From assembly GCF_011682045.1 (NCBI RefSeq), contig NZ_VVIW01000031.1, positions 1-64,000 on the forward strand: DNA of 64,000 nt, written 5' to 3'. Shown in pieces: positions 10,946 through 62,075 of this stretch (positions are counted from its first letter, which is position 1; every line of letters starts with the position of its first letter). The DNA comes from Massilia aquatica. Its GTDB lineage: Bacteria; Pseudomonadota; Gammaproteobacteria; Burkholderiales; Burkholderiaceae_D. Made by a program: the position numbers and the translations under genes. The notes beneath the pieces are model-generated. The model saw only the letters and a list, made by a program, of their open reading frames with translations. It was not told the DNA's origin and ran no database searches.

Positions 10946-10973
10946 CACCGATCGATTGAAAGAAGCTCCGACC

Positions 10974-11464: not shown

Positions 11465-11491
11465 CGGCGCTGCACTGAGCCGGCAGCGCCG
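11465..11491. terminator. hairpin between convergent WG remnant and lipoprotein gene
   Basis: CGGCGCTGC (11465-11473) pairs exactly with GCAGCGCCG (11483-11491), in the short gap between convergent reading frames. No T-tract. It may terminate in both directions. Confidence 0.45.
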
Positions 11492-11495
11492 CCGC

Positions 11496-11816: not shown

Positions 11817-11956
11817 CATGTCCCCGTAAAGTTGGAAAAATGATACATGAGCGGGCATGTGCGCGGCAAGTGCGGAGCAATGCTTGCCATTTATAGCGAA
11901 CAGAAGCGGATGACTGGCAAGGCGCCGCTGCTGGACGCCGGAAATGGCAAGCATGT

Positions 11957-12463
11957 TCAGGCGCCGAGGATGCGCGCCACCTGTTGGCCGGGCGCGCTGC
12001 CGATGTCGAGCAGCACGCCAGCTTCGTCGCTCTGAAGCGCTTCGAGGTCGCGCAGCTGGCTCTCGAGCAGCGACGGCGGCATGTAGTGGCCGGCGCGCGC
12101 CTGCATGCGCGCCGCGATCAGTTCGCGCGGGCCGTCCAGGTGGGCGAAGCGCAGCGCCGGATCGCCTTCGCGCAGCAGGTCGCGGTAGCGCCGCTTGAGC
12201 GCCGAGCACGACAGCACCAGGCCGGCCCCGCCTGCGCGCGCCTCCCGTATCCGCGCTTGCAGGGCCAGCAGCCAGCCGGCCCGGTCGTCATCGTCGAGCG
12301 GCATGCCGGCCGACATCTTGGCCACGTTGGCGGGCGGGTGAAACTGGTCGCCTTCCACGAACGGCACGCCGAGCTCCTGTGCAAGGGCTTGCCCCACCGT
12401 ACTCTTGCCGCAGCCCGACACCCCCATCACCACCCAGCGAATCTTGTCACCCTGATCGACCAT
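11957..12463 (-). CDS. gntK: gluconokinase
   Basis: A 168-residue P-loop kinase that phosphorylates gluconate to 6-phosphogluconate in the cytoplasm, feeding the Entner-Doudoroff and pentose phosphate routes. The Walker A motif G-V-S-G-C-G-K-S-T is near the N-terminus. It is followed by the GntK signature F-V-E-G-D-Q-F-H-P-P-A-N-V-A-K-M-S-A-G and D-D-D-R-A-G-W-L. C-S-A-L-K-R-R-Y-R-D and Q-A-R-A-G-H-Y-M-P are also typical. The length matches the family. The start at 12463 was chosen over upstream in-frame ATGs because it leaves a normal GntK N-terminus and puts a palindromic operator just upstream. No gluconate permease or dehydratase is adjacent. Confidence 0.92.
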   Translation of the reverse strand: MVDQGDKIRWVVMGVSGCGKSTVGQALAQELGVPFVEGDQFHPPANVAKMSAGMPLDDDDRAGWLLALQARIREARAGGAGLVLSCSALKRRYRDLLREGDPALRFAHLDGPRELIAARMQARAGHYMPPSLLESQLRDLEALQSDEAGVLLDIGSAPGQQVARILGA

Positions 12464-46384: not shown

Positions 46385-47125
46385 ATGTACTTCCATTGCA
46401 TCGCTGCCCTGCTGGCCATTTGCCTCCTGCTGTCAAGCGGGGGCGCGAGCGCCGTCACCGAAGAGGAAGTGGTGGCGGGCGCCGCCAGGCTGTATCGCGT
46501 CCGGATAGACGCGCTGGCGCAGGCCGGCATGCTCGACCGCGACGCATTGTTCGTGGCGCGGGTCGCGCGCATTGCGCAGCGCTTGAGCGAGCAGGCCCGG
46601 CACGACGACCCGGCCGCCCAGGTGGTGTCGTGGGAAATCCACACCAGCAGCGATCCGGACGACAATGCCTCATGCATGGCCGGCGGCAAAATCCTGGTCA
46701 GCCAGCCCTATGTCGAGCAATTGGCATTGACCGATGCCGAACTGGCGATGGTGCTCAGTCATGAGATGCAGCACGCTATCTTGCTGCACAACCTGAAGGA
46801 ATACCACGAGGCGGTGCGCCTCGATCCGGCCTGGCTGGCGCGTCCGTTTTCCGCGCTGGAAGCGGCGGTCGACAATGACGCACGCCTGATGGGGCAACTG
46901 GCAGAGCTTAACCGCGAGCAGGAAGTCGAGGCCGACCGGGAGGGAATGGCGATGGCCTGGCGCGCGGGCTGGCGGGCCAGCGAACTGGCCGCCTATTTTC
47001 GGAAACTCGAGCAGGCCGCCACCATGAGCCACATCGGCAGCGCGACTCACCCGTCGCCGCTACAGCGCTGGCGCGCGGCACGGCGCCAGGCCGAGGCGCT
47101 TGCACGCGGCCGAACTGGCGAGTAA
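46385..47125 (+). CDS. secreted M48-type metallopeptidase
   Basis: 246 residues with a signal peptide (M-Y-F-H-C-I-A-A-L-L-A-I-C-L-L-L, cleavage near G-A-S-A). The zinc motif is H-E-M-Q-H at 126-130, with third ligand Glu182 in V-E-A-D-R-E-G. G-K-I-L-V-S-Q-P-Y-V before the active site is the M48 layout. Likely a periplasmic peptidase. There is no transmembrane anchor, unlike the M48 protein at 13440-14255. GGAG lies 5 nt before the ATG. Monocistronic. Confidence 0.85.
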   Translation: MYFHCIAALLAICLLLSSGGASAVTEEEVVAGAARLYRVRIDALAQAGMLDRDALFVARVARIAQRLSEQARHDDPAAQVVSWEIHTSSDPDDNASCMAGGKILVSQPYVEQLALTDAELAMVLSHEMQHAILLHNLKEYHEAVRLDPAWLARPFSALEAAVDNDARLMGQLAELNREQEVEADREGMAMAWRAGWRASELAAYFRKLEQAATMSHIGSATHPSPLQRWRAARRQAEALARGRTGE

Positions 47126-47446: not shown

Positions 47447-49633
47447 ATGAGCGCCGACACGGCGCCGCAGACGGCCATCGTCACACTGCAAAATTGTGCG
47501 GACGAACCGATCCATGTGCCTGGCAACGTGCAGGCGCATGGCGCGATGCTGGTGTTCGACGCCGGCGCGCGCCTGGAAGCGTGGAGCGCCAACGTCGGCA
47601 CCTTGCTCCTCATGGAGCCCGGCATGGGCATGCCCCTGCAAGCAGTCGGCCTGCCTGCGCCGATTGCGCAGATGGTCCAGGAATGCCTGGCGCTGTGCGC
47701 CGGCGACGCCATACCGTGGATGCTGGCGGTGCACATTGGCGGGCGCGAGTTCGATTGCGTGGCGCATGCGCATCTGGGCCGCGTCATCGTCGAATTCGAA
47801 CTGCGCGATGTCTCGCTCGACGAGGTCGGCATCTTTGCGCTGAAAGCGCACAGTGCACTGGACCGCCTGAAGCGCCAGACCACAGTGACCTCCTTGCTGC
47901 AGATGGCCACCGACCAGGTAAGGGAGATTACCGGTTTCGACCGGGTAATGGGCTACCGCTTCGCCCAAGACGGCAGCGGCGACGTCATTGCCGAGTCGCG
48001 CAGCGCCAGCCTTGCGCCATTGCTGGGCATGCGCTACCCGGCCAGCGACATCCCGGCCCAGGCACGGCGCTTGTATGTGATCAATACCCTGCGCTTGATT
48101 CCCGACGTCAAGGCGGCCGTGGTGCCCGTGCTCGGGCGCGACGGCAGCGCGGCGGTCGACATGAGCCATTGCGTGCTGCGCAGCGTCTCGCCGGTGCATA
48201 TTGAATACTTGAACAACATGGGCGTGGGCGCATCCATGAGCGTGTCCATCATCGTTGACGGTTGCCTGTGGGGCCTGATCGCCTGTCACCACATGAGCGC
48301 GCGCCGCGTTCCGTACGCCATCCGCATGACAGCCGATGTGATCGCCCAAGTGCTGGCGGCCACGGTTCAGACCCTGGAAGCCCAGCGCCGCACGGAAACC
48401 ATTGCGCTCGCCGCCGACATGCGCTCGAACCTGATGCAGTCGCTGCTGATGGGCGAAGACACGCTGCGCGACGTCGCCGTGCACGCGGGGGCCATGTGCG
48501 ACGCCCTCCAGTGCCCGGCGCTGATCGTCACCCAGTCCGGACGCCACGTCGCGCATGGCGCGATCGATGCGCTGACGGCGGCGGTGATTGCCCGCGCCCA
48601 TCCGCTGGCGGGCGACTTGCTGCTGGAGCGGCGCCAGGTCAGCGACTGGCCCGAGTCCGCGCGCGCGCACATCGCGCACTGGCCCGGCATGCTGGCGATC
48701 TGTTTCGATCCACCTCGCGACGGCTGGATCATGGCCCTGCGCCCGGAGCAGATCGCCTCGATCCGCTGGGCCGGAAAACCGGAGAAAATTCTCCGGGTGG
48801 GCCCCCTGGGCGGGCGCCTGACCCCGCGCGGATCGTTCGACGAGTGGCTCGAAACGGTGCGCGGGCGGGCCGAAGGCTGGTCCGCCACGCACCTGGCGAT
48901 CGCCCGGCAAATGCAGGATGAGCTGCACCGCGCCAGCATCGCCAGGCAGACCGAGACCGACCTGGCGCGCGCCCAGCTGATGGCCATGCTGGGACACGAC
49001 TTGCGCGAGCCGCTGCAGGCGATCCAGATGGCCGCCGCCGTGCTGCAACAAGGCGGCGCCGCGGCGCCCATCGGGCTGCGGATCCAGAGGTCGAGCAGCC
49101 GCATGAACCGGCTGATCAGCCAGGTGCTCGATATGAGCAAGATCCAGATGGGCGTCGGCCTGGGCGCGCAGATGCGCAGGCTCGACCTGGCAACGGTAAT
49201 CGGCGACGTGGTCGATGAAGCGATGACCGGCCATCCCGACGTGTGCTATCGCCTCGTTGCCGACGCTGGCGCGCTGGTCGAGGGCGACGCCGACCGCCTG
49301 GCGCAGCTGGCCTCCAACCTGCTGAGCAATGCGCGCAGTCATGGCGAGCGCACGGCACCGATCGATATCGTGGTCGCGGCCGGTGCCAAGGAAGCGACTT
49401 TCTCGGTCAGTAACGTTGCCGAGGCACTCGACCAAGCCGCCGTGCGCAGCCTGTACCAGCCATTCAAGGCAGCCTCCCTGCACAACGCGCATAACCGCGG
49501 CGGCATGGGACTGGGCCTGTACATTGCCGAACGCATCGTCACGGAGCACGGCGGCACCCTGGCCTATGCGCACGCGCAGGGCCGGGTCACCTTTACTGTC
49601 ACGCTTGCGCTGGCGACCGGCGCAGGCGGGTGA
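47447..49633 (+). CDS. bphP: bacteriophytochrome sensor histidine kinase
   Basis: A 728-residue red/far-red photoreceptor kinase. Cys17 in N-C-A-D-E-P-I-H-V-P-G lies in the N-terminal segment where bacteriophytochromes attach biliverdin. A PAS-like domain (about 15-115), a GAF domain (about 140-310; F-D-R-V-M-G-Y-R-F and the P-A-S-D-I-P motif near 200) and a PHY domain (about 320-500) follow. The kinase has His517 in L-G-H-D-L-R-E-P-L, N-L-L-S-N-A-R-S-H and G-M-G-L-G-L-Y. There is no receiver domain. No heme oxygenase (bphO) or response regulator is adjacent, so biliverdin must come from elsewhere. Start at 47447, with a weak ribosome site. Confidence 0.93.
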   Translation: MSADTAPQTAIVTLQNCADEPIHVPGNVQAHGAMLVFDAGARLEAWSANVGTLLLMEPGMGMPLQAVGLPAPIAQMVQECLALCAGDAIPWMLAVHIGGREFDCVAHAHLGRVIVEFELRDVSLDEVGIFALKAHSALDRLKRQTTVTSLLQMATDQVREITGFDRVMGYRFAQDGSGDVIAESRSASLAPLLGMRYPASDIPAQARRLYVINTLRLIPDVKAAVVPVLGRDGSAAVDMSHCVLRSVSPVHIEYLNNMGVGASMSVSIIVDGCLWGLIACHHMSARRVPYAIRMTADVIAQVLAATVQTLEAQRRTETIALAADMRSNLMQSLLMGEDTLRDVAVHAGAMCDALQCPALIVTQSGRHVAHGAIDALTAAVIARAHPLAGDLLLERRQVSDWPESARAHIAHWPGMLAICFDPPRDGWIMALRPEQIASIRWAGKPEKILRVGPLGGRLTPRGSFDEWLETVRGRAEGWSATHLAIARQMQDELHRASIARQTETDLARAQLMAMLGHDLREPLQAIQMAAAVLQQGGAAAPIGLRIQRSSSRMNRLISQVLDMSKIQMGVGLGAQMRRLDLATVIGDVVDEAMTGHPDVCYRLVADAGALVEGDADRLAQLASNLLSNARSHGERTAPIDIVVAAGAKEATFSVSNVAEALDQAAVRSLYQPFKAASLHNAHNRGGMGLGLYIAERIVTEHGGTLAYAHAQGRVTFTVTLALATGAGG

Positions 49634-50105
49634 CGCCGGCAAGCAGGTCACAGTTGCCGGGCCAGCCGCCGGTCACCGATACCCACACCCATCAGGGCGA
49701 AACGCGCACCTTGCGTGGCGCCAGATGGCGCCCCACGGGTCGCCTTTCCAGATTAGCCGAAATGAATGGTCAATAGTTAAGAAAGTAGCCTTAATACTAT
49801 TTATTTTTCGACAGGTAGGCATGTCGAATTTTTCGGCCGTTCATGTGTATAGTCATCGTCATGAGTGTGCCGGCGATCGTGTGGATGCATCGCGTTTCTT
49901 TCTCACTGAGTAACAAAGAAACCGCACACTGGCGCGCCCCGCTGCCGATCGACCAGCGCAAGCTCGACAGTGGCAACCCAGTAGTGCGCTGCCGGGCGCC
50001 ACTGGCGGAACGCGCCGGCGCCGCCATCGTTTCTTGGTTAGGACGGCCCTGCCCGGGCCGCGTACCGCATCTTGCTGCCTCTTTTGTCAACGCTGAAAGA
50101 ACAAC
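49634..50105. other. intergenic region between bphP and VioB-like pair
   Basis: 470 bp without a convincing gene. A hairpin CCGGCAA/TTGCCGG (49636-49642 and 49654-49660) right after the bphP stop may terminate it. An AT-rich block at about 49755-49815 is the best place for the promoter of the VioB-like genes. AAAGA precedes the ATG at 50106. Confidence 0.45.
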
Positions 50106-51917
50106 ATGAGCTACCTGAACCCTTTGCGCCTGCACTTCTGCGGCCGCTTCCAGGCCAATCCTTCGACGGTCAACAACACGGTGGCCAACTTCGACAGCGA
50201 CGCCTTCGTTGCGGATGCCGACAAACTGTGGAATCCGGGTGGCGATGCGGCATGGCGCTTGTCCGGTTGCAAGGTCACCTGCGCATTCACGGCGGCGGGC
50301 CCGGTCGGCGCGGACGACCCCATCCTGGGATACAGCATTGCCGATTCGAACGAACAGGTCTGCGCCAAGATCGTCGATCTCGATCCCGAGCAGCAGCTGG
50401 TATCGGAAATCTGGGGCCTGCAGGTGCGCATCGCCGACGCCAACGGCAATACGCTTGTCGTGGGCGACTTCACGCCGGCGGCGTTTACCGATATCTGGTT
50501 TGGCCGGTCACAGGGCAAAAGCGGGGACATGGGGGCCGGCGCCATGTGGCAGTCCGTGCTGACCAAGCTGCGCTGGGGCGACGTGTCGCACTCGCGCTTC
50601 CTTACCGCGCTCCAACAGGCCGCCGGCTCGGGCAAGTTGTCGATCAAGTTTAATTGCGATGGTTACAACATGACCCCGACCGCGCCGGATTTCAGCTATG
50701 GCCGCGTGTATGGAACGATCGGACCGGCCCTGGCCGGCGAACCGGATCACCTGGTAGTCGGGCGACAGTTCATTGCCGCTGATCCCGGCAAGCAAGGGAT
50801 CAACCATTTTTCCGCGCGCGTCGACACCAGCGCCGCTTGCCTGTTCCTCGACCTGGGCAATGCGTTGCCCACCGTGGTCGCGGGAGGACCTGCGGCCTCG
50901 CTCGGCACCCTGTCGGTAGGCATCGTCGATCCACTCATGACACCGGGGACGCCGGCCGGGCACGTCACGGTGCTGGGCACGATCGCGCCGGCGGTGTATC
51001 AGCAACCCGACTGGTTCGCCCGGACGGCCGGCGTGGTCGTTCTTGCGCTCGATGCCGCCCAACTGCGGGCAGTGGCGGCCAGCCCGCTTGCCCTGGCGGG
51101 CGATGGGCCTGCCGCGGCATTCATCTCCGAAGCGCTGGACGGCAAGTTCGTCCGGGCTGACCGCTTCGTGTTTCGCCTGTGCCCGCACGAGCAGGCCGAG
51201 ATCGCGGTGCACGCGAGCCTGTGGGGCGTGCCCTACCCGGACGCCGAAGTCACCTTCCCCGCAGACAATCAGCAACTCCAGGCCCAGGTCCAGGTCTTGC
51301 AGGTGGGCTTACCGCCGCTGTGGGCAACGGCAAGCAACCCGGCTGCAACGACGGACCGCAACGGGGTAGCGATCCTGAGAATGACGCCGCCCGATCCTGG
51401 CACCCCGCGCTTCTTTCCCGACCATCCCGACTGCGCTATCGACGGCCAGGTGTACGCCATTCGGCCGAAGCTGGCTGATCAATCCATCGATGCGAATGTC
51501 AACGCGTCCAATTTCATCAGCATCCTGCTCTGGAGCGGGTTTGCCGCGCCAGCGCCGCTCACCTGGGATGCGATTTATCCCATCTTCCTGCAATACGCCA
51601 ACCTGTACCCGGTGATGAAGCGCTTTCTCGACTTGTCCAGGTACGAGGACGTGGTCGCGAACGCGCGCCTGCTCAAGCTCGCGTTCGGGCTGCCCGCCTC
51701 CGATCCGAACGCCATGCCGGTCACGCGTGATCTGTCACCGGCCAAGCGCGCCGCGATCCTCGCCTGGCTGGACAACCCGTTGCCCGGTACCGCACCCGCC
51801 GTAAAGCGTGTGGAGGCGCTCCTTGAAACGGTACCCGCTTCACCGCCCCCCGGTGACGGCGAAGGCGGCAAATCGGCCGCGTCAAAACGCCGGCTTGTGG
51901 TACGCGAAGCAGAGTAA
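50106..51917 (+). CDS. VioB N-terminal-region-like protein
   Basis: 603 residues, no signal peptide. The opening L-R-L-H-F-C-G-R-F-Q-A-N-P-S-T-V-N-N resembles the VioB start (P-R-I-H-F-R-G-W..N-A-P-T-A-N). A long beta-rich body follows. Near the C-terminus Y-A-N-L-Y-P-V-M-K-R-F-L-D-L, a Leu-rich helix, then T-R-D-L-S-P-A-K-R-A-A-I-L-A-W-L parallels the VioB segment just before its ferritin-like half. VioB (iminophenylpyruvate dimer synthase family) is one chain of about 1000 residues; this gene and the next together make about 950. The comparison with VioB is from memory. The substrate here is unknown and no vioA/C/D/E is present. Probable operon with the next gene (25 bp gap). Confidence 0.65.
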   Translation: MSYLNPLRLHFCGRFQANPSTVNNTVANFDSDAFVADADKLWNPGGDAAWRLSGCKVTCAFTAAGPVGADDPILGYSIADSNEQVCAKIVDLDPEQQLVSEIWGLQVRIADANGNTLVVGDFTPAAFTDIWFGRSQGKSGDMGAGAMWQSVLTKLRWGDVSHSRFLTALQQAAGSGKLSIKFNCDGYNMTPTAPDFSYGRVYGTIGPALAGEPDHLVVGRQFIAADPGKQGINHFSARVDTSAACLFLDLGNALPTVVAGGPAASLGTLSVGIVDPLMTPGTPAGHVTVLGTIAPAVYQQPDWFARTAGVVVLALDAAQLRAVAASPLALAGDGPAAAFISEALDGKFVRADRFVFRLCPHEQAEIAVHASLWGVPYPDAEVTFPADNQQLQAQVQVLQVGLPPLWATASNPAATTDRNGVAILRMTPPDPGTPRFFPDHPDCAIDGQVYAIRPKLADQSIDANVNASNFISILLWSGFAAPAPLTWDAIYPIFLQYANLYPVMKRFLDLSRYEDVVANARLLKLAFGLPASDPNAMPVTRDLSPAKRAAILAWLDNPLPGTAPAVKRVEALLETVPASPPPGDGEGGKSAASKRRLVVREAE

Positions 51918-51942
51918 TTGTCGATCCCTACAGGAGAACACC

Positions 51943-52998
51943 ATGATCCATCTCCAACGCGAACGGCTGCGCAGCCTGCGCTCGACCACCCCCAAACTGG
52001 CCGACGTGCGCGCGGTACTGCAGGATGCCATCGAACTGGAACACGCAACCATTCCCGTTTATCTCTACGCGCTGTATTCGCTGGACCCGTCCAAGAACGG
52101 CGCCGTGGCCGCTATCATCGAGTCTGTGGTGATGGAGGAAATGCTGCACATGCTGCTCGTTGCGAATGTCCTCAACGCCATCGGGGGCCAGCCGGACATC
52201 GCCGCGCCTGGTTTTATCCCGCGTTATCCCGGTCCACTGCCTGGCGACGTGGAGGGCGAACTGATTGTCCATCTCGCGCCATTTTCGCAAGACCAGCTGA
52301 GCGCTTTTCTGACCATCGAGCAGCCGGAGAATCCCTTGGTGTTCAAGCACGTGCCAGGAGAAGACGACCGCAGGGTGACCATCGGCGAGTTCTATGCGGC
52401 CATATCGGCATCGCTGGCGCGCCTCGACCCTTCGGTGTTCAGCAATACGCCGCGCAACCAGGTGGGGCCGGACCTGTTTACAGGCAGTATCGTGGTGACC
52501 GATTTGAAAAGCGCGCAAGCGGCGATCAATCTGATCGTCGAGCAGGGCGAGGGCACCAGCACATCGCCGGAGGAAACCGGCGGGGGCGGATTTGCCCACT
52601 ATTACCGGTTCATGCAGATACGTAAAGGCCATGCACTCGTCAAGAATCCAGGCGTCAATCCCCCGCAGAAGCGCTATTCCTATTCCGGAGCGCCAATCTC
52701 GATCGACCCGGACGGCGTGTATGCACTGCCGACCAACCCCAAATCAGCCGATTATCCGGATGGCTCAGCGCAGCGTTACGCGTCCGACAGGTTCAACTAT
52801 ACCTATACGGCGCTGCTCAATTGCCTGCACTGCCTGTTTGGAGGGGAAGAAACGGCGCGCCAGCTGGACGTGGCGGTTGGCTTGATGATGTCGCTGAAGG
52901 GACAAGCCAAGGCCATGGCAAGCGGGGTTCCGAACCCGGCAATTATCATAGGCCCCAGCTTCGAGTACCAGGCCGGCAATCCACCCGGCCCGGCGTAA
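51943..52998 (+). CDS. ferritin-like protein (VioB C-terminal-domain-like)
   Basis: A 351-residue ferritin-like protein. Helix 1 has Q-D-A-I-E-L-E-H-A-T-I-P-V-Y-L-Y-A-L-Y (Glu31, Glu33, His34). Helix 2 has M-E-E-M-L-H-M-L-L-V-A-N-V-L-N-A-I-G-G (Glu65, Glu66, His69). This ExxH pairing is the diiron signature, and both blocks parallel VioB's D-L-E-L-S-V-M-L-Q-Y-L-Y-A and A-H-E-E-M-I-H-Y-L-V-V-N-N-L-L. It is probably the Ferritin-like family that also covers VioB, RebD and StaD. AGGAG lies 7 nt before the ATG. It likely forms a complex with the upstream protein, so the pair acts as a split VioB-like enzyme. Reaction unknown. Confidence 0.78.
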   Translation: MIHLQRERLRSLRSTTPKLADVRAVLQDAIELEHATIPVYLYALYSLDPSKNGAVAAIIESVVMEEMLHMLLVANVLNAIGGQPDIAAPGFIPRYPGPLPGDVEGELIVHLAPFSQDQLSAFLTIEQPENPLVFKHVPGEDDRRVTIGEFYAAISASLARLDPSVFSNTPRNQVGPDLFTGSIVVTDLKSAQAAINLIVEQGEGTSTSPEETGGGGFAHYYRFMQIRKGHALVKNPGVNPPQKRYSYSGAPISIDPDGVYALPTNPKSADYPDGSAQRYASDRFNYTYTALLNCLHCLFGGEETARQLDVAVGLMMSLKGQAKAMASGVPNPAIIIGPSFEYQAGNPPGPA

Positions 52999-53067
52999 AG
53001 CCGCATCATCGGCATGGCGCGGGACGGTTGATCAAACCGCCCGGTTGAGGTTTGCGGGCCGGGTGGA

Positions 53068-54156
53068 TCACGCTGCCAGTGGCTGGTGAATATCGACCCG
53101 CTCCAGCATGTCGCTGCCAAAGTCGGACAGGAAGCGCGGCGATTTTTCCCTGAGGCCGTCCAGCGTGTCGCGCAGGCCGGCGGTGAGTTCCCCGGCGCGT
53201 ACATGCTGCCTGGCCTTGTCCATGAAGATGGCCAGGCCGATGGCCACGAATACGGAATGGAAGGCGATGTTGACCCCGCGCGGATATTTTTTTATCGCCG
53301 AGATAACCAGCCCATCCTCGGGTGCATACCAGTGCGGCGTGGTGAAGATCTTTCGTACCAGGTCGGCCAGGAAAATGGTGTTATGGATGTATTCGTGGAC
53401 GATGCTTTCGGCAAAATCGAGAACGGTCCAGGATGCATCCGGATTGATCCAGATCAGTCCAACCATCGACGACACGGTGCCGCTACTGCCCTCGCGCCGT
53501 ACACAGGCAATGGTGCCGATCATCGCGTGGATGGCGGTGTACAGGTCGCCGTCGACGGCCTTAATGAATGCCAATGCGTCTCCAATCCTCCCTGTAATGG
53601 TTTGTTGTTCGGCAGCTGAATAGAACTGCGGTTGCGAGCGCGATATCAAGCCTTCCCTGCACAGTTCTTCCAGGAGGCGCGGATTGTCAAAAGACACCAT
53701 CAGCGCGTCCTGGCAGGGAATCGACGTGTTTTGAATGGCGTTCAGGCTGTTGATGTAACTTTGCTTGAAGGTCGCCGCCACCGGCAGGCACCCGGTGATG
53801 GCAGCGATGGCCTGGATCTGGTTGTTGATATTCTGGCGCAGGTTGAACGGATCGTAACGGCCTTGCTCCGTCAGGGTGGCCAGGCCGGACAGCGCAGCCG
53901 GGTCATTCGCAACTGGTCCCTCCTTGGTTGCTGCGAGCTGGCGCCGACGGTCCTCGGCTTCCGCCGCCGAGGGATCGATCGGACCATTCGCCGTGCTCGG
54001 CAAAGGGGGCGGCGGCTCTGGCCGTAGCGCGCCGTGCATCATATTGATCGACGCATACCACAGGATATTTTTCTTGACGGTGTTCAATTCGTCGCCGTCC
54101 GCCTCGAATGCGGCGATGGCACTCTGCCTTAACTGGGTAATCGGAGTATCGTTCAT
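53068..54156 (-). CDS. HExxH-type putative peptide-modifying enzyme
   Basis: A 362-residue cytoplasmic protein. The key motif is H-E-Y-I-H at 254-258 in S-I-V-H-E-Y-I-H-N. About 40 residues later comes Y-P-R-G-V-N-I-A-F-H-S-V-F-V-A-I (His300). That spacing and the 'R-G/P...H-x-x-Y/F' context resemble the HEXXH-motif family found beside RiPP precursors (TIGR04267 from memory), members of which act as 2-oxoglutarate/iron peptide beta-hydroxylases. It is not a typical zinc protease: no signal peptide, no M48 or zincin context. It lies 140 bp downstream of a small gene with repeated Tyr-Val-Trp motifs, its proposed substrate. ATG 54156 was chosen. Activity is inferred. Confidence 0.68.
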   Translation of the reverse strand: MNDTPITQLRQSAIAAFEADGDELNTVKKNILWYASINMMHGALRPEPPPPLPSTANGPIDPSAAEAEDRRRQLAATKEGPVANDPAALSGLATLTEQGRYDPFNLRQNINNQIQAIAAITGCLPVAATFKQSYINSLNAIQNTSIPCQDALMVSFDNPRLLEELCREGLISRSQPQFYSAAEQQTITGRIGDALAFIKAVDGDLYTAIHAMIGTIACVRREGSSGTVSSMVGLIWINPDASWTVLDFAESIVHEYIHNTIFLADLVRKIFTTPHWYAPEDGLVISAIKKYPRGVNIAFHSVFVAIGLAIFMDKARQHVRAGELTAGLRDTLDGLREKSPRFLSDFGSDMLERVDIHQPLAA

Positions 54157-54221
54157 GTGGGAATCCAGTTGTGCGCCCTGCGCGGGCGACGTTTCACCTG
54201 CTGGAATAACCGGGCGGGAAA

Positions 54222-54285
54222 CGCGGGACTTGCCCCGCGCCTGGCGCCCGGCCAAGCGAATTCACCTCGCAAGGGGCTTCGCCCC
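54222..54285. promoter_or_regulatory. hairpins between precursor and HExxH enzyme genes
   Basis: CGCGGG/CCCGCG (54222-54227 with 54234-54239) and GGGGC/GCCCC (54273-54277 with 54281-54285) lie in the 140-bp gap. There is no T-tract. Hairpins at this point in RiPP operons can favour precursor over enzyme expression; here that is inference. Confidence 0.35.
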
Positions 54286-54296
54286 CGGCAAGCTAG

Positions 54297-54662
54297 TTAC
54301 CAGGTCCGGGGCGGCAGCAAACCATCCGTGACTTGCCTGCCCGCTGGCGCACTTGTGCGCGCGGAGGCGTCGCAGCGGTCGATCGCCACGGATTGCTGGC
54401 TGCGGCCGCTACCATGGTCATTGACGGCAGCCCACACGTAGTTTGCCGGCCCGTGCGCGTTGGCATCGCCCGCGTTGGACGGCCCCCCACCCTGGGAACC
54501 CCATACATACTGAGCCGCAGGTGGTGCCGGCGTCCCAATCTGTGATCCCCAGACGTACTGGGCGGCAGGCGGTGGTTGTTGCATGCGAACGTGTAATTGC
54601 GCATCCGGGGTGATTTCGATTTCGTGCAACACGCGGCCTTGATGTGTAATTCTGATTTCCAT
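54297..54662 (-). CDS. candidate RiPP precursor with three YVW motifs
   Basis: A 121-residue peptide. The first 28 residues (M-E-I-R-I-T-H-Q-G-R-V-L-H-E-I-E-I) look like a leader. Then A-A-Q-Y-V-W-G-S-Q occurs at 33-41 and again at 49-57, separated by a Pro-rich linker. A third, looser copy P-A-N-Y-V-W-A-A is at 72-79. The two exact copies use different codons at nearly every third position, so selection acts on the peptide. A Gly/Ser/Asn-rich stretch and a tail containing one Cys (97) follow. AAAGGA lies 7 nt before the ATG. An in-frame ATG at 54971 exists but lacks support. The HExxH enzyme gene follows. No peptidase or transporter is adjacent. Confidence 0.65.
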   Translation of the reverse strand: MEIRITHQGRVLHEIEITPDAQLHVRMQQPPPAAQYVWGSQIGTPAPPAAQYVWGSQGGGPSNAGDANAHGPANYVWAAVNDHGSGRSQQSVAIDRCDASARTSAPAGRQVTDGLLPPRTW

Positions 54663-55043
54663 ATATATTCCTTTAGTAGCGTTAAGCTGCATAACGTGGT
54701 TGTCGGAATGCCCGCCAGCAGGGCAAAGAAAATTCAAAACACTCAGTTCATGCAGACCGCCCACCCGGTCCGCATCACTCACACCCTTGGACGGCGCCGG
54801 TGGTAGCACCAATCCATCCAAGTAAAAGGCATATGGCCTGCCAGCGCCAGTGCCGGACACTGTTGCGCCGGACCTGTGATTCGGAAGTCTCCTCCTCAAG
54901 GCAGTCGCTTGCGAGAATGTGTCAACAACTCTACACAGAGTCACAACACAAAAATTCACTAAATGTAACAATAAGAAAATTATATGGAGGCTGGTGCCAC
55001 GATCCGATAATGCTAAATGTCCTTGCTTCTGCCGCGCAGGCTC
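54663..55043. other. AT-rich region upstream of precursor gene
   Basis: About 380 bp with no convincing gene, despite a few open frames. It is much richer in A/T than its surroundings at about 54925-55005, where a minus-strand promoter for the precursor gene could lie. The precursor ribosome site is at its left end. It also lies downstream of the FecR gene; no terminator hairpin was recognised. Confidence 0.4.
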
Positions 55044-55050
55044 CTAGCGC
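55028..55050. repeat. dispersed 23-bp repeat, copy B
   Basis: Identical to 107-129. Here it covers the last bases and the stop codon of the FecR-domain gene (the minus-strand TAG lies at 55044-55046). Confidence 0.6.
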
Positions 55051-55790
55051 ACCTCGCAGTCGACCGCCTGCGGCCTGGCGGTCCCGGCGAGCGTTTGCGA
55101 TCCTGGCGACAAGCTAAATGCCACCGGCGGGGTAAACCTCAGTGCCGGATTGTTCGGCACCATCAGCGGCGGCTGCTGCCTGGTCGGCGTAAAACCGAAC
55201 TGCCCCGCCGAAAAATTCATGCTGCCCCCGGCATTGCTGACCATGATCGTTCCGTCAACGACGAACACATGCAAGCCGGGCGCCAGTGCGCCCGCGCCCG
55301 CTTGCGCCGGCGGCGCCCCACCCGGCGGCGGCACAAACTGCGCAACGAAGGTCGTGCCGCGCACGCCGATCGTGGCAATCGGCGTCTTGAGCTCGAACTT
55401 TTCCTTGTTGCGCTTGCCCAGCAGCCCGGTCAGCGAGCGCAGTCCGCCCTGGAGCAGGCTGAAACTGGCGCTGTCGGCTTCCGGCTTGCCGCTTTCATAG
55501 GCGAAGGCCTCGATCTTGAAGGTTGTGCCCGGGCGCAAGGTGATTTCGCTGTTGTCGATGAAGCGGATCCGGGCGTAGGTGTTCTTTTCGGACACCAGCG
55601 TATCGCCCTGCGCCACTTCCGACTTGAGGCCCAGCACCTTCACGCTGCCGTCCGCCTTCCTGACCATCAGCGGCCCGTTCAGGTTGACGATGGTGCCGAC
55701 CACCTGGGCCGCCCACGCCATCGCGCCTGAAGCGGCCAGCAGGAGAGCGGCGAACGCCTTAATTGCAATACGTCTTTTTGCGCAGTTCAC
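55044..55790 (-). CDS. FecR-domain protein of two-partner-secretion operon
   Basis: A 248-residue exported protein. It starts at GTG 55790 with AAGGAG 8 nt upstream, and the first 32 bp overlap the end of the exoprotein gene. The signal peptide (A-A-L-L-L-A-A-S-G-A-M-A-W-A-A) is followed by a FecR-like beta domain: V-V-G-T-I-V-N-L-N-G-P-L, V-A-Q-G-D-T-L-V-S, I-R-F-I-D-N-S-E-I-T-L-R-P-G-T and T-P-I-A-T-I-G-V-R-G-T-T-F-V. There is no anti-sigma region or sigma factor gene, so it is probably a periplasmic or surface accessory of the exoprotein rather than a regulator. Confidence 0.82.
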   Translation of the reverse strand: MNCAKRRIAIKAFAALLLAASGAMAWAAQVVGTIVNLNGPLMVRKADGSVKVLGLKSEVAQGDTLVSEKNTYARIRFIDNSEITLRPGTTFKIEAFAYESGKPEADSASFSLLQGGLRSLTGLLGKRNKEKFELKTPIATIGVRGTTFVAQFVPPPGGAPPAQAGAGALAPGLHVFVVDGTIMVSNAGGSMNFSAGQFGFTPTRQQPPLMVPNNPALRFTPPVAFSLSPGSQTLAGTARPQAVDCEVR

Positions 55791-58700
55791 TCGCGTCTCC
55801 TTGAACAGTCCTTGTCGCGACGGTATTGGCGCCGTCGTCCTTGATGCCCGCTGTTTCCTCGTTGGCCGGGGTGACGCTGTTGACCGCATTGACCGTGTTG
55901 ACGATGACCTCCTTGAGCAGCGCAGCGCTCGCCTGCTGCGGCGGGGCCACCACGGTGCAGCCGGGTGCGCCCGGATCGGCCGCGCAGGCGCTCACTGGCG
56001 GCAGTACCACGGAGCAGCCCTGCAGGGTCGGGCTGGCCACGCACTCGCTCACGGTCGGCAAGACGGCGGCGCATCCGGCCAGCGCCGGCGTCGCCACGCA
56101 CTGGCCCAGGCCTGGCAGCACCACCGCGCAACCGGCCGCCGATGGCGTGGCAAGGCACTGGGCCAAGGCCGGCAAGACCACGCCGCAACCGGCCAGGCCT
56201 GGCGCGGCTGTGCACTGCCCAAGGGTCGGCAACACCACCGAGCAGCCCGCTGCGGCCGGATTTGCTATGCATCCCTGCAAGCTCGGCAAGACAGCGCCGC
56301 AGCCGGGCAGGCTGGCATTGCCGACGCACTGGTTCACGCTCGGAAGCACAACGGCGCAGCCCGGCACGGCGGCATTGGCCGCGCATTGCGCAAGCGATGG
56401 CAGTACCACCGCGCAGCCGCTGGCGCCCGGATTGGCCAGGCACTGGCCCAGCGACGGCAGCACCGCCGCGCAGCCGGGGGTGGCCGGATTGGCCAGGCAG
56501 CGGGCCACGCTCGGCAAGACCACGGCGCAACCGGGCAGGCTGGCCGAGGAAATGCACTGCGCCAGGGTCGGCAGCACCACCGCGCAGCCGGCCTGGGTGG
56601 GCGCCGCCACGCATTGGGCCACGCCCGGCAGCACCACCGCGCAACCCGGCACGCCCGGGCTGGCGCTGCAAGCGGCCAGCGAAGGCAGCACGACGGCGCA
56701 ACCGGCCTGGCCCGGATTGCTCACGCACACGGCCAGGCTCGGCAAGACCACCGCGCAACCGGCGCGCGACGGCGTCGCCAGGCAGGCGTTCAGGGTTGGC
56801 AGCACCGCGCTGCATCCGCTGGTGGACGGCGCGGCAATGCACGACGCCAGGCTCGGCAACACTGCCGAGCAGCCCGCCTGGGCAGGGTTGGCGCTGCACT
56901 GGGCCAGGGTCGGCAGGACCGCGCTGCAACCGGGCGTGCCCGGCGCACTTGCGCACTGCGCCAGGGTCGGCAGGACGGCACTGCAACCGGCACTCGCCGG
57001 ATTGCTGGTGCACTGCGCCAGGCCAGGCAACACCACACTGCAACCTGGCGTGCCGGGCGCACTCGTGCACTGTGCCAGGGTCGGCAGGACCGCACTGCAG
57101 CCGGCGCTCGCCGGGAGGCTGGTGCACTGCGCCAGGCTTGGCAGCACGGCGCTGCATCCCGCCGTGGCGGGCGCGGCGGTGCAGGACGCCAGCGTCGGCA
57201 ACACGACGGCGCAACCGGCGGTCGATGGCGCCGCGACGCATTGGCTCAGGCTCGGCAGCACCACAGCGCAGCCCGGCAAGCCGGGATTGGCCGTGCAAGC
57301 GCCCAGGCTCGGCAACACCGAAGCGCAAAAGCTCAGTGTTGGATTGGCGCTGCAGGCGCTGACCGCATTGGCCAGCACGCTCGCGCAGCCTGCCAGGGTG
57401 GGCGTGGCGATACAGGCGTCGATGGTCGGCACGGTGGACGGTACGCCGCTCACCGTGCCGCTGGCACTGGCGAGCGTTCCGCTGCCGCTGAGCGAGGCGG
57501 CGCTCACCGAAATATTGCCGCTAGATGCAGCAACGCTGCCATTGTTGACGATCGATCCCGCCACCAGGGCAATATTGCCGGCGCCGGAGGCGACGCTGCC
57601 GCTGGGGCCGATTGTCAGGACCCCGCCGTTACCGGCTTCCAGGCCGATCGCGCCGCCGTTCGAGGCCACGCTGCCATTGATGGTCAGCGGGCTCTGGGTC
57701 GATAGCTTGATTGCGCCGCCCAGGCTGCTCACCGACACTGGCGTGCTTGAGCCCGGTTCGTACTGCAGCAGCGTCATGCCGCCCTGGTTGGCGACCGTGA
57801 TCGCGCCGGTGTTGGCGCCGCCGCTCTGGAGCACGCTGCCAAGATCGAGCGTGCCGCTGTTGCTGATGTTGATCGGGCCGCCGCCGCTCTCGGTTTCGTT
57901 GATTGCCGTCAGATAGGCGGTCTGGGTGCTGAACGGGGTCGATGCCGAACCGGCCTGCTGGCGCGTGCGCAGCTTGATGGCGGCGGCCTTGGCCGGCGCC
58001 GCGCTGCTGTTGCCGACGCTCCAGCCGACCAGGCGCAAGGCGCCCGGCGTGGTGAGGGGATCGAGCAGCGTGATCATGCCGTTGCCGGCGTCGATGGTCA
58101 GCGTGCTGGCCGCCGTCAGATTGCTGGTCAGGTCGAGTGCGCCGTTCACATCCACCGCGCCGGTCTGCGCCAGTTCGCCGCCTATCGTGAGGCGGTTGGC
58201 GTAGATCCGGTTCAACTCGCTGGTATTCAATCCCAGGCGCCCGGTGGCGTCGAGCGCGTTGTTACCGATATGAACCAGGGTTTGCGGATTGCCGGGACTG
58301 AGGACCACCTCGCCGCCGGCGCTGCCGGTGCCGGTGATGGTGGCGCCGATGTTGATATTGTCCGACAGGAGCAGCACCCTGTCGGCGCTCAGGCTGCCGT
58401 TGGAACCGGTGTTGATCAGCCCGACGGCGCCGAAGCGCTCCAGCGCCAGCGTGCCGCCATTGTCCGGCTGTAAGGTGATCGGCGCATTGACTTCGATATT
58501 GCCGCCGCTGCGCAGGCGCAGCACGGTCGTTTCGGCCTGGGTGGCCTGGCCGCCCAACGCTGCGGCGACCAGGATCTTGCCGCTGTGGCCGAAGCCGCCG
58601 ATGGTCAGTTCCTGCGAGCGGATCGGGTTCAGGTGAAACGGCGACAATTGCAGCAGCGCGCTCGAGGGCGTGCCGCCGGCGATCACGATGTCGCGGTTGC

Positions 58701-60480
58701 TGGTGTATGGCGCAATGCTGACGGTCGGGCGCGGGCCGCCGGAAACCGGTCCGATCATGCCACCCGGCATATCGACCCGGTCGGCCACGATGGCGATATC
58801 GCCACCGCCCTGCAAGGCGCCATTCGGCGCCAGCTGGAACAGGTCGGTCGCACTGAACGTCATCGATCCGCTGCCGCTGTTGACGATGGCGCTGCCGCCA
58901 GTGCCGATTTTCACATCCTTGCCGCCGAGGGTCAGGCTGCCGCCGCCGGTACTGAGCGCCGCGTCGACCAGCACACTGCCGCTGCCGCTGGCATACGGCG
59001 CCACGTTCGCGTTGAGCAAGAGCGCCCCGCCCGAGGTGGCGACCGGGGCAGTAACGGTGATGTTGTTTCCCGCTTCGATCGACAGGCTGCCCGAGGTGCC
59101 GCCCGGACGCGTGAGCGCGCCATTGACCAGCACATCGTGGCGCGCCTGGATGACGATATTGGCGGCGCTCCCCGCACCGTCGAGCTTGGACGAGTCGATG
59201 AAGGTCATGGTATCGGCCGGCGTATCGGTGAACTGGTCGACCGTGTCCAGCAGGTCGGTGCTGCCGTTGGCGCCGATGGTCACGTCGTACGGGTCGAGCA
59301 GCCAGGTGCCGCGCTGGCCGGCGTCCACCCGCAAGCCGTTCACATCCAGGTAATGGCCGGAGGTTTCCACCATGGCGCCCTGGCCGCCGCTTGCCGAAAT
59401 GGTGCCGTAGGCGCGCGTGGCGCCATCCGACCACAGCACCACGGTGCCGCCCGCGCCGCCGCCGCTGTCGGCGCGGATCGACGCCGCCTTGCCCATCACG
59501 GTCTGGCGCGCATTGCGCACCAGCGCATTGTTGCCCTGGTAGCCGCCGCCGACCAGCACCGTGCCGCCGGCGGTCGCGCCGCTGGCGTCGATGCGGGCGT
59601 CGCCGGTAAGGCCGACCCGCTCGCCCTGCACGCTGATCGCGCCGCCCTCCCCGGCGCCGGTGACGCTGCTCACGCTGCCGCCTTCGAGCAGCGCATCGGC
59701 GCTGGCCCTGAACACGATCTTGCCGTTGGCGCCGACCTGGGCGCTGTTGGCGCTGACCAGCCCGCGCTGCCTGACCAGCGCGCCGTAAATGCCGATCTTG
59801 CCGCCCTGGGCAATCAGCTGCCCCAGGTTCAGCGCGGCGTCGGCCGGGCTCGAGACCACCACATGCAGGTCGGGATTGCCCGAATCGACCAGTTGCACGC
59901 TATGCCCGGCCGCCAGCACCACGGCGCCCTGCGGCGAGGTGATGATGCCGCTGTTTTCCACGTTCGGCGCGATCAGGAACACGGTGCCGCCCGATGGCGT
60001 GGTGATCGCACCCTGGTTGACGATGCCGGCGGCCGTGGCCGGACCGTTGAAATTGAGCCTGCCGGACAGGAAGTCGGCATTCGTCAGATTCAGGGTCGAG
60101 GCGCTCAATCCATGGACATCGATGCGCGCGTCGCGTCCGAACAGGATGCCGTTCGGATTGATCAGGAATACCTGCCCGTTCGATTGCAGCGCGCCCAGGA
60201 TGCGGCTTGGATCTTGCCCGGTGATGCGGTTCAGCACCGCGCTGCGCGCATCCTGCTGGATGAAGCGGGTGATGTCGCCCGCCGCCACCGAAAAGCTCTG
60301 CCAGTTGATGATGGTGTTCGGCGTGTTGGTGATCGAAAAGACGTGTCCCTGCTGGACAAAGGTGGCCTGCCCGGCCACCACCTGCGGCGCCCCCGGCGCG
60401 GCGACGGCGCCGCCGAAGGCCAGCAGCAAGGGCAGGCAAAGACGCTTCAGCAAGCGCGGGCGGAAATTCTGGGTGTTCAT
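55759..60480 (-). CDS. two-partner-secretion exoprotein (TpsA) with cysteine repeats
   Basis: About 1573 residues. A signal peptide (cleavage near G-A-V-A-A) precedes a filamentous-hemagglutinin TPS domain (about 30-150): V-V-A-G-Q-A-T-F, N-T-I-I-N-W-Q-S-F, I-L-G-A-L-Q-S-N-G-Q-V-F-L-I-N-P-N-G-I-L-F-G. A beta-helical region runs to about 1000. Residues about 1020-1505 consist of about 24 repeats of 19 residues (G-C-x-x-V-L-P-x-L-x-x-C), two Cys each. The end is R-K-K-T-Y-C-N. Secretion by the upstream TpsB barrel is expected. AAAGG supports ATG 60480 over GTG 60489. It may act as surface adhesin; no toxin domain is seen. Confidence 0.88.
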   Translation of the reverse strand: MNTQNFRPRLLKRLCLPLLLAFGGAVAAPGAPQVVAGQATFVQQGHVFSITNTPNTIINWQSFSVAAGDITRFIQQDARSAVLNRITGQDPSRILGALQSNGQVFLINPNGILFGRDARIDVHGLSASTLNLTNADFLSGRLNFNGPATAAGIVNQGAITTPSGGTVFLIAPNVENSGIITSPQGAVVLAAGHSVQLVDSGNPDLHVVVSSPADAALNLGQLIAQGGKIGIYGALVRQRGLVSANSAQVGANGKIVFRASADALLEGGSVSSVTGAGEGGAISVQGERVGLTGDARIDASGATAGGTVLVGGGYQGNNALVRNARQTVMGKAASIRADSGGGAGGTVVLWSDGATRAYGTISASGGQGAMVETSGHYLDVNGLRVDAGQRGTWLLDPYDVTIGANGSTDLLDTVDQFTDTPADTMTFIDSSKLDGAGSAANIVIQARHDVLVNGALTRPGGTSGSLSIEAGNNITVTAPVATSGGALLLNANVAPYASGSGSVLVDAALSTGGGSLTLGGKDVKIGTGGSAIVNSGSGSMTFSATDLFQLAPNGALQGGGDIAIVADRVDMPGGMIGPVSGGPRPTVSIAPYTSNRDIVIAGGTPSSALLQLSPFHLNPIRSQELTIGGFGHSGKILVAAALGGQATQAETTVLRLRSGGNIEVNAPITLQPDNGGTLALERFGAVGLINTGSNGSLSADRVLLLSDNINIGATITGTGSAGGEVVLSPGNPQTLVHIGNNALDATGRLGLNTSELNRIYANRLTIGGELAQTGAVDVNGALDLTSNLTAASTLTIDAGNGMITLLDPLTTPGALRLVGWSVGNSSAAPAKAAAIKLRTRQQAGSASTPFSTQTAYLTAINETESGGGPINISNSGTLDLGSVLQSGGANTGAITVANQGGMTLLQYEPGSSTPVSVSSLGGAIKLSTQSPLTINGSVASNGGAIGLEAGNGGVLTIGPSGSVASGAGNIALVAGSIVNNGSVAASSGNISVSAASLSGSGTLASASGTVSGVPSTVPTIDACIATPTLAGCASVLANAVSACSANPTLSFCASVLPSLGACTANPGLPGCAVVLPSLSQCVAAPSTAGCAVVLPTLASCTAAPATAGCSAVLPSLAQCTSLPASAGCSAVLPTLAQCTSAPGTPGCSVVLPGLAQCTSNPASAGCSAVLPTLAQCASAPGTPGCSAVLPTLAQCSANPAQAGCSAVLPSLASCIAAPSTSGCSAVLPTLNACLATPSRAGCAVVLPSLAVCVSNPGQAGCAVVLPSLAACSASPGVPGCAVVLPGVAQCVAAPTQAGCAVVLPTLAQCISSASLPGCAVVLPSVARCLANPATPGCAAVLPSLGQCLANPGASGCAVVLPSLAQCAANAAVPGCAVVLPSVNQCVGNASLPGCGAVLPSLQGCIANPAAAGCSVVLPTLGQCTAAPGLAGCGVVLPALAQCLATPSAAGCAVVLPGLGQCVATPALAGCAAVLPTVSECVASPTLQGCSVVLPPVSACAADPGAPGCTVVAPPQQASAALLKEVIVNTVNAVNSVTPANEETAGIKDDGANTVATRTVQGDASELRKKTYCN
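55950..57420 (-). repeat. about 24 tandem 57-bp repeats in tpsA
   Basis: Each 57-bp unit encodes 19 residues: G-C, two small residues, V-L-P, then L-x-x-C and a Pro-containing turn of seven. Cysteine spacing is alternately 9 and 8 residues. Units are divergent at DNA level but constant in length. The repeats generate long open frames on the other strand and frames, which are not genes. Confidence 0.9.
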
Positions 60481-60491
60481 TCGGTTCACCT

Positions 60492-62075
60492 TTAGTAAGC
60501 CAGGCCCACACGCACATGGACTTTGTTCTTGCCGGCCACGGCGGCGTCGCGCCGCAGCACATGGCCGTAATCGATCTGCACGTCGAGCGACTTGCCCATC
60601 GAAAAGCGCCAGCCCGCGCCAGCGCTCGACAAGGTGGCGCGCGCCGCTTCACCGGGCAATACCGCGCGGCGCCGCCCGTGGGCCGCGTCGACGAAGGCCA
60701 GCACGCGGCACTGCCAGTGCTGGCGCGCCGCGCACCAGTTGGGACTGTACAGCTCCAGGTTGGCCAGCACGCCTGAATCGGTGGAGACGGCGCGCTCGTC
60801 GACCCCGCGCACCGAGGACGCGCCACCGGCACCGAACTGCTCGCCCGGCACCAGGGCGTCGCCGCTCGCCTGGCCGCTCACCGCGGCGCGCCCTTGCCAG
60901 TCGCCGCCGAAGGCGCGCTGCCAGCCGGCCGCGAAGCGCGCGATGCTGTAGCCGGCCGTGGCGCCGGAGCGGGCACGCGCAAAGTCGGCGCTGCCGCCCC
61001 GGCTGCCGCCTGGCACGTTGCGCACCACGCCGAGCGAGAAGCTCGCTTGTCCGCCGGCCAGCGCCATGCTGGCCAGATAGGTTGCGCTGAGCGGATGGAC
61101 AGTGACCTCGTTGCCGACATCCTGGCCGGCCAGCAGCACGCTGTTCTTGTAGGCCTTGTGGTCGACGCCGAACACCAGGCGCGGATCGAGCCCGCCGCGC
61201 CGCGCCAGCGTGCGGTTGTAGCGCAGCCCGGCCACCGTGCCCTTGCCGCTCACGGCCAGGTTGAAGATGCCGGCCGTGACGGCGCCCGAATCGATGTCCG
61301 AATAGCTGGCGTACAGGTCGAGCGAGTCGCCCAGCTGGTACAGCGGAATGTGATATCCGGCGCCGTACACGCTGACCTTGCCGGGTTCCTCGACCGTGGT
61401 GGTGTACTGCAGGCTGCCGACATGGTCCCGCCCCCACAGGTTGGCGTGCTGCAGCACCACGCCGGCGTGGGTGTTGCCGGTCGGCCCGGTGCCGCTGTTG
61501 TCGAGGTTGAGCGCGACGGTCCAGGGTTTGCTGTCGCTCACCAGCAGGCGCGCATCGAGTTCATCGTCGGCGCTGCCGGTTTGCAGGTTCAGGCTGATTT
61601 TGCGCGCCGGGTTCTGGTTGGCCATGCGCAGATTGGCCGAAACCCGGTCCAGGTCGGGGGTGGCGCCCGCTTGCAGGGCCGGCACGGCGCGCCGCACATT
61701 GGTGTCGTCGACCACGGTGTTGCCGGACACCAGAATGCGGCCGATGCGGGTTTGCACCACGTCCAGGCGCACCACGCCGCGATTGAGTTCCTGCTCGGGC
61801 AACTGGACCGTGACGACCTGGTAGCCGCGCTGGTGGTACAGCGCTTCGAGCGCTTCGAGCGCGCGCTGCACGTCGCCAAAATCGCGCCCGCCGCCGGTAT
61901 GGGCGCGCAGCGCGGCGTCGATCTCGCCCGCGCCGAGCAGGGTATTGCCGGCCACCTCGTAGCGCAGGATGTCGAAGCGGATCGGGTCCGGTACGGGCGG
62001 CTCGATCCCCCAGGCGGCCCCGACCGCAGCCGCCAACGCGGCGCCGCAGGCAAGGCGGGCAAATGGTCTAGTCAT
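60492..62075 (-). CDS. TpsB/ShlB-type outer-membrane secretion protein
   Basis: A 527-residue outer-membrane transporter of the FhaC/ShlB/HecB family. The signal peptide ends A-A-W-G. POTRA domains follow: F-D-I-L-R-Y-E-V-A-G-N-T-L-L and G-R-I-L-V-S-G-N-T-V-V-D-D-T-N-V-R-R. The 16-strand barrel carries the conserved V-R-G-V-D-E-R motif near 420 and ends V-H-V-R-V-G-L-A-Y. It secretes the TpsA protein encoded 11 bp downstream. GGAG lies 7 nt before the ATG. First gene of a three-gene operon. Confidence 0.92.
   Translation of the reverse strand: MTRPFARLACGAALAAAVGAAWGIEPPVPDPIRFDILRYEVAGNTLLGAGEIDAALRAHTGGGRDFGDVQRALEALEALYHQRGYQVVTVQLPEQELNRGVVRLDVVQTRIGRILVSGNTVVDDTNVRRAVPALQAGATPDLDRVSANLRMANQNPARKISLNLQTGSADDELDARLLVSDSKPWTVALNLDNSGTGPTGNTHAGVVLQHANLWGRDHVGSLQYTTTVEEPGKVSVYGAGYHIPLYQLGDSLDLYASYSDIDSGAVTAGIFNLAVSGKGTVAGLRYNRTLARRGGLDPRLVFGVDHKAYKNSVLLAGQDVGNEVTVHPLSATYLASMALAGGQASFSLGVVRNVPGGSRGGSADFARARSGATAGYSIARFAAGWQRAFGGDWQGRAAVSGQASGDALVPGEQFGAGGASSVRGVDERAVSTDSGVLANLELYSPNWCAARQHWQCRVLAFVDAAHGRRRAVLPGEAARATLSSAGAGWRFSMGKSLDVQIDYGHVLRRDAAVAGKNKVHVRVGLAY

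Follow-up and report, generated by a model that had tools for sequence, protein, structure and literature searches.

Members of the aKG-HExxH family depend on iron and alpha-ketoglutarate and act on the precursors of ribosomally synthesized and post-translationally modified peptides (RiPPs) (PMC12636437, PMC13060819). In the available portions of these accounts, the published enzymes hydroxylate His, Asp, Phe, Gln and Pro residues of RiPP precursors (PMC13060819, PMC12636437), BpmH of biphenomycin is a further predicted member (PMC12257519), and the family is described as a young one whose reactions are not yet predictable (PMC13060819). Here we analyze a 64,000-nucleotide stretch of Massilia aquatica contig NZ_VVIW01000031.1 (the window), in which an open reading frame (ORF) of 121 codons with repeated Tyr-Val-Trp (YVW) units (54297..54662, minus strand) is followed directly, on the same strand, by a gene for an HExxH protein. 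Homologues of both genes adjoin in two further genomes, G313 and G323. We propose, with a probability of about 0.8, that the ORF encodes a multi-core RiPP precursor whose leader docks an aKG-HExxH oxygenase that modifies the repeats.

The closest described systems are the pfl and pos clusters of Pseudomonas, where, in the parts of the report at hand, an aKG-HExxH enzyme (PflC or PosC) likewise works on a precursor whose N-terminal part serves for recognition, no protease gene lies nearby, and the pfl cluster includes a GNAT gene, as do the G313 and G323 loci (PMC12636437). The precursors differ, in that PflA and PosA combine a nitrile-hydratase-type leader with a C-terminal Gln run and ARMD, whereas the YVW repeats here lie in the middle of the protein. 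The partners differ as well, PflD being an MNIO-nitroreductase (PMC12636437), while the partner here resembles half of VioB, the iminophenyl-pyruvate dimer synthase of violacein biosynthesis, and no MNIO occurs among the profiled neighbours. Similarly, PesO of the nitrilobacillin (pes) cluster is an aKG-HExxH enzyme that modifies a ribosomal precursor, as we propose here; according to the excerpted account, however, it hydroxylates Pro (PMC13060819), and the MNIO and Asn-synthetase-like enzyme of that cluster were not seen among the profiled neighbours of our locus. ChlBH (Morishita et al. 2024, as cited in PMC12636437 and PMC13060819) has an HExxH domain of the same family with a fused radical SAM domain that, in these secondary accounts, builds a cyclophane first; the window enzyme is unfused.

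Repeated or multiple cores on one precursor are also known, with other core sequences, from thiovarsolin and from multi-core microviridin precursors, as far as the portions seen of these reports describe them (PMC6511847, PMC5934393). The thiovarsolin model weakly matches one homologue of the window precursor (E 0.021, 15.1 bits against a cut-off of 35). Thiovarsolin and microviridin are made by enzymes different from those at our locus, namely YcaO/TfuA and ATP-grasp proteins, respectively. Against NCBIfam, the window precursor gave nothing over a cut-off, the sole match at E 1 being to the phazolicin family (11.7 of 33 bits). Among the literature matches listed, which cover titles and the openings of abstracts with most subscription journals out of reach, we found neither a YVW core nor a pairing of a VioB-type protein and a RiPP described, and the motif itself retrieved a single, unrelated paper. 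The aKG-HExxH family and multi-core RiPPs are already known; the YVW-core precursor and its linkage to a VioB-half-like gene are new as far as searched.

The precursor ORF runs from an ATG at 54662 to a stop at 54299-54297 and translates as MEIRITHQGRVLHEIEITPDAQLHVRMQQPPPAAQYVWGSQIGTPAPPAAQYVWGSQGGGPSNAGDANAHGPANYVWAAVNDHGSGRSQQSVAIDRCDASARTSAPAGRQVTDGLLPPRTW. The bases upstream of the ATG are AAAGGAATATAT, and AAAGGA precedes the start. A longer, TTG-started version of the same frame (224 residues) was set aside given the MEIR start common to both homologues and the AAAGGA before the ATG, as was a plus-strand gene over 54297..54662, whose first-frame reading is interrupted by two stops. All parts described here lie on the minus strand. 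Residues 1-26 (MEIRITHQGRVLHEIEITPDAQLHVR; 54585..54662) form a conserved, leader-like segment. AAQYVWGSQ follows twice, at residues 33-41 (54540..54566) and 49-57 (54492..54518), and a degenerate third unit, ANYVWAA, stands at residues 73-79 (54426..54446), where both homologues have AQYVWGA. These units, which a sequence-only reading of the window had already picked out as two exact copies and a third NYVWA copy, hold all three Tyr and three of the four Trp residues of the protein. In all three precursors the YVW units are spaced 15-16 residues apart, the exception being the third unit of the window, which lies 23 residues past the second; this copy may be decaying. In the C-terminal part (residues 88-116, 54315..54401) the islands IDRxDA and GLL are conserved and the remainder is variable.

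The repeats are not a product of chance. Between copies 1 and 2, six of the 27 bases differ, and each of these differences falls on a third codon position and leaves the peptide unchanged, in agreement with the sequence-only reading; when six random changes were simulated, the peptide was kept in none of 20,000 copies. Composition-preserving shuffles (n = 20,000) yielded a repeated 9-mer 0 times, a repeated 6-mer 13 times and a repeated 4-mer 2601 times. Only one of the 816 stop-to-stop frames of at least 40 residues in the window contains YVW, namely the precursor, which has it three times. The shuffles, the synonymous-only differences and the frame count together rule out a chance repeat.

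Comparison with the homologues extends this pattern. We classed codons as identical, synonymous or nonsynonymous (counts in this order), taking as linkers the codons between residue 26 and unit 2. Between the window and G313 the leader gives 12/12/2 of 26 codons, repeat units 1 and 2 together 8/12/0 of 20, the linkers 1/2/7 of 10, and the part past unit 2, third unit included, 12/10/35 of 57. Against G323 the corresponding counts are 12/11/3, 6/13/1, 0/3/8 and 10/9/38. The leader and the first two repeats thus change almost only synonymously, while the linkers and most of the remainder drift, and the repeats are under purifying selection. The Tyr, Val and Trp of the third unit are retained, with synonymous changes at Tyr and Val; one G323 unit has GLQ instead of GSQ. 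For the closer pair, G313 and G323, the counts are 22/3/1 (leader), 15/4/1 (units), 9/2/6 (linkers) and 36/15/6 (rest), the last of which indicates that the part past unit 2 is also constrained between these two.

The neighbouring gene (53068..54156, minus strand) encodes a 362-residue member of the aKG-HExxH-type peptide beta-hydroxylase family. Co-occurrence with an HExxH gene, which had been suggested as a check, holds in all three loci, each enzyme scoring above the NCBIfam cut-off of 40 for TIGR04267 (window 50.1, G313 51.4 and G323 51.3 bits). A short gene with a conserved leader and core thus lies beside a peptide-modifying enzyme gene in three of three loci, as is characteristic of RiPP precursors. 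The HEYIH motif of the window enzyme spans H254 to H258 (Met = 1; 53383..53397, minus strand), and R293 and H300 are also retained; H254, E255, H258, R293 and H300 are predicted to bind iron and alpha-ketoglutarate. Across ten enzyme sequences (window, G313, G323, S. warneri and loci L025-L030; seven aligned and three compared by motif) HExxH is present in nine, L029 having YEMTH at this position, and the downstream Arg and His are present in all. Despite YEMTH, the L029 protein scores 60.5 bits against TIGR04267. A comparison of the window enzyme with the sequences of the PDB gave no match at E 1.

More distant relatives of the enzyme occur on nine plasmid records and one phage record. A short ORF stands just upstream of the enzyme gene in Bacillus phage SPbetaL1, on plasmids of S. 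warneri and Cytobacillus, and in L025, L029 and L030; these ORFs were chosen by eye and cover a subset of the distant matches. In SPbetaL1 (L067, 2684-3768) the aKG-HExxH gene (58.2 bits against TIGR04267) lies right behind a 66-residue ORF; although both are annotated as hypothetical proteins, they resemble a RiPP pair carried by the phage. In L025, L029 and L030 short ORFs ending like PLNMIAYE precede the aKG-HExxH genes and transporter-like sequence, and these ORFs form an apparent separate RiPP family.

The precursor itself is found in few genomes. A search of 392 genomes of the family at E<=0.01 returned 11: the genome of M. aquatica itself, G313 (E 2.7e-27), G323 (E 8.7e-27) and eight others. 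The nine weak matches in those eight genomes (E 7.6e-4 to 0.009) and three weak matches within the own genome (E 0.05 to 0.3) were attributed to composition and discarded because none of the 12 loci has YVW in any frame of the match and up to 1.5 kb on each side. G313 and G323 share one other genus, and one of them is Pseudoduganella violacea CECT 8897. In both, an almost identical N-terminus precedes three YVW segments, and the loss of these segments, named in the sequence-only reading as what would count against a precursor, is not seen. The expectation that copy number would vary over a constant leader was borne out for the leader; copy number varies little, the relatives having three full units and the window two exact and one degenerate. 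An AEYAG stretch in the precursors of both relatives is a possible repeat remnant.

The enzyme is similarly restricted. The enzyme alignment (A1) matched eight of the 392 family genomes, three at full length (753-797 bits) and five partially (27-42 bits), and two of 399 genomes of the order, the own genome and one partial match (G707). It also matched two of 74 genomes in the genus of G313, namely G313 and G323, and only the own genome among 397 of the phylum and 17 of the own genus. The family, order and phylum samples overlap and are drawn from larger groups, and the two genus searches were made without subsampling. A peptide-pattern scan of a genome collection with two patterns from A1 found one locus, in P. 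violacea CECT 8897; an earlier pattern scan of the collection with the window enzyme alone found none. No match to the G313 precursor was obtained among plasmids, and viral contigs scanned with two enzyme peptide patterns held no relative. The system is rare and patchy among the genomes searched.

A second candidate enzyme is encoded close by. The window carries, on the plus strand and convergent with the RiPP genes, a gene for a 603-residue protein related to the N-terminal half of VioB (VioB-N-like; 50106..51917), followed by one for a 351-residue ferritin-like protein related to the C-terminal half (51943..52998, its start codon being our choice; PF12902, 208.7 bits). In three of three loci a VioB-N-like gene is found less than 3 kb away from the enzyme gene, whereas for a given point the chance of having one that close is about 0.002 in the own genome and about 0.004 in the relatives. 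Of 245 sampled family genomes, own included, five have a VioB-N-like match with an E no higher than 1e-20. The G313 and G323 loci are not independent of each other as evidence for this linkage, and in neither does the ferritin-like partner adjoin the enzyme. We regard the linkage as good evidence of a shared pathway, though not as proof, and it suggests that the VioB-half-like gene is a second oxidative partner.

The relationship to VioB is remote. G313 carries a true VioB elsewhere (TIGR04492, 1855.9 bits). A profile of six VioB-N-like proteins matches it in three ordered segments (35.8 bits, a modest score from a one-sequence search), while the window VioB-N-like protein alone gives only a 31-residue match (E 0.092). 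The ferritin-like protein matches positions 662-833 of the 1003 of the VioB model TIGR04492. The profile and this match together give collinear homology to both halves of VioB. Unlike VioB, the window version is split over two genes, stands beside a peptide gene and falls far below the equivalog cut-off of 1250 (ferritin-like protein 28.6 bits, VioB-N-like protein no match).

Further copies of the VioB-N-like gene, most of them with a PF12902 ferritin-like gene as partner, occur in L050 (6533-9484), L051 (6831-12885), L052 and L062-L065. These clusters, judged by eye, resemble the ebo type, and some hold a lipoprotein-like protein with GGVHNxKxC and NCIAPRKPGE.

We propose the following pathway for the multi-core precursor. 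The first ~26 residues would serve as a leader that docks the adjoining HExxH protein, which would act as an Fe(II)/alpha-ketoglutarate-dependent oxygenase and not as a protease. One residue in each PAAQYVWGSQ unit would be oxidised, most likely by beta-hydroxylation, with one leader serving several cores. These two steps draw on knowledge of the family and on linkage. The VioB-half-like protein, joined in the window by its ferritin-like partner, would then probably oxidise aromatic residues further, as linkage and remote homology suggest. Lastly, proteases encoded elsewhere may cut the variable Pro/Gly/Ala linkers, a step suggested by codon patterns. A more specific version, in which the split VioB-type oxidase forms C-C or C-heteroatom links within or between Tyr-Val-Trp units after or together with aKG-HExxH hydroxylation, is tentative and on balance doubtful. 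A three-residue macrocycle would fit the Y-x-W spacing (i, i+2). A biarylitide-like reading, in which a P450 cross-links Y-x-W, was set aside; the profiled neighbours include no P450, and no search aimed at P450s was made.

Several observations weigh against the proposed pathway. The repeats lie mid-protein with conserved islands behind them, a departure from the usual leader-then-core order, and the precursor is known from only two homologues that are mutually close and of one genus, so that effectively two lineages are represented. The AlphaFold model of the precursor has a predicted local distance difference test score (pLDDT) of 33, too poor to serve as evidence either way on a fold that includes the repeats, and that of the enzyme, built from two sequences, is also poor (pLDDT 43). 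TIGR04267 matches 131 residues within the C-terminal half of the enzyme and leaves the first 190 outside the model, alignments to the plasmid and phage relatives begin only near residue 122, and a Pfam scan gave no match for either the precursor or the enzyme. YVW repeats are absent from the short ORFs inspected next to the nearest of the distant aKG-HExxH relatives. The window VioB-like genes run towards the HExxH gene on the other strand, and their VioB-N-like product has only ~30% identity to those of G313 and G323. Finally, no peptide exporter was recognised in the window and no protease gene directly beside the precursor and enzyme genes.

This last observation, like the conserved islands behind the repeats, would also fit a precursor that is modified but never cut, in which the repeats, hydroxylated or cross-linked, form a structural or metal-binding protein that works intact. 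We consider this unlikely. The linkers are free to change (7 of 10 codons nonsynonymous), as expected of discarded spacers, and some RiPP clusters that lack a protease are thought, in the excerpted discussion of the pfl and pos clusters, to use proteases encoded elsewhere (PMC12636437). That the HExxH protein is instead a zincin protease, with the small protein as its substrate or inhibitor and no oxidation, appears quite improbable, the aKG-HExxH cut-off being exceeded and the family pattern around W-x-NP, HExxH, R293 and H300 retained, even though HExxH is the zincin motif and PflC is described in the same partial source as proteolytic when the leader is missing (PMC12636437). An ordinary low-complexity stretch with a coincidental enzyme neighbour is scarcely credible: the region is rich in Ala, Pro and Gly and has only three copies, but units 1 and 2 diverge only synonymously, the neighbour is constant in three of three loci, and the frame is the sole one of 816 with YVW. 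The multi-core precursor proposed by the sequence-only reading, which the homologues and the adjoining aKG-HExxH gene support, thus remains our preferred reading, with modification and processing predicted from sequence.

The precursor and enzyme genes adjoin in all three genomes found to hold both, which span two genera. The G313 and G323 loci read precursor, HExxH, VioB-N-like (overlapping the HExxH stop by 4 bases) and GNAT (8-base overlap), the last assigned by PF13302 as tested in G313. The window precursor and enzyme genes are separated by an intergenic stretch (54157..54296, minus strand) with GC-rich stems (fold z -2.46, matched by 5 of 200 shuffles), computed on 54146-54302 and thus including a few bases of both genes. 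It is a possible attenuation or RNA-stability element, and such a structured gap could lower the enzyme relative to the precursor. Promoter and terminator scans of 52900-55100 returned nothing, no terminator-like site included; Rfam at the gathering threshold (49500-55900) and PADLOC gave no match. The nearest protease gene in the window encodes an M48 peptidase (46385-47125), ~6 kb away from the enzyme gene on the far side of a phytochrome-type kinase gene, with no tie to the precursor.

An MFS gene and a LysE gene lie near the G313 locus. Just past the G313 RiPP genes, in the opposite direction, L020 holds a sub-threshold match to a 2OG-Fe(II) oxygenase (11485-12363, minus strand) and a LysE-type exporter (10773-11420, minus strand), and similar ORFs occur in L021. 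Elsewhere in the window, a TPS-domain two-partner-secretion exoprotein of 1576 residues (55759-60489, minus strand) lies beside a ShlB-type transporter gene (60492-62075, minus strand) and contains a long Cys-bearing repeat array, CxxxPxxxGCxxVLPxL, with a 57-base period and, within one block, 13.2 copies.

The repeat-bearing precursor offers a short, testable substrate with a natural series of positions in one molecule, and P. violacea CECT 8897, as a culture-collection strain, is a workable relative. The linkage to a VioB-half-like gene makes it testable whether a violacein-type oxidase scaffold acts on peptides. If the split VioB-type oxidase does link the Tyr-Val-Trp units, this would be peptide chemistry carried out by a scaffold recruited from the small-molecule indole coupling of a pigment pathway.
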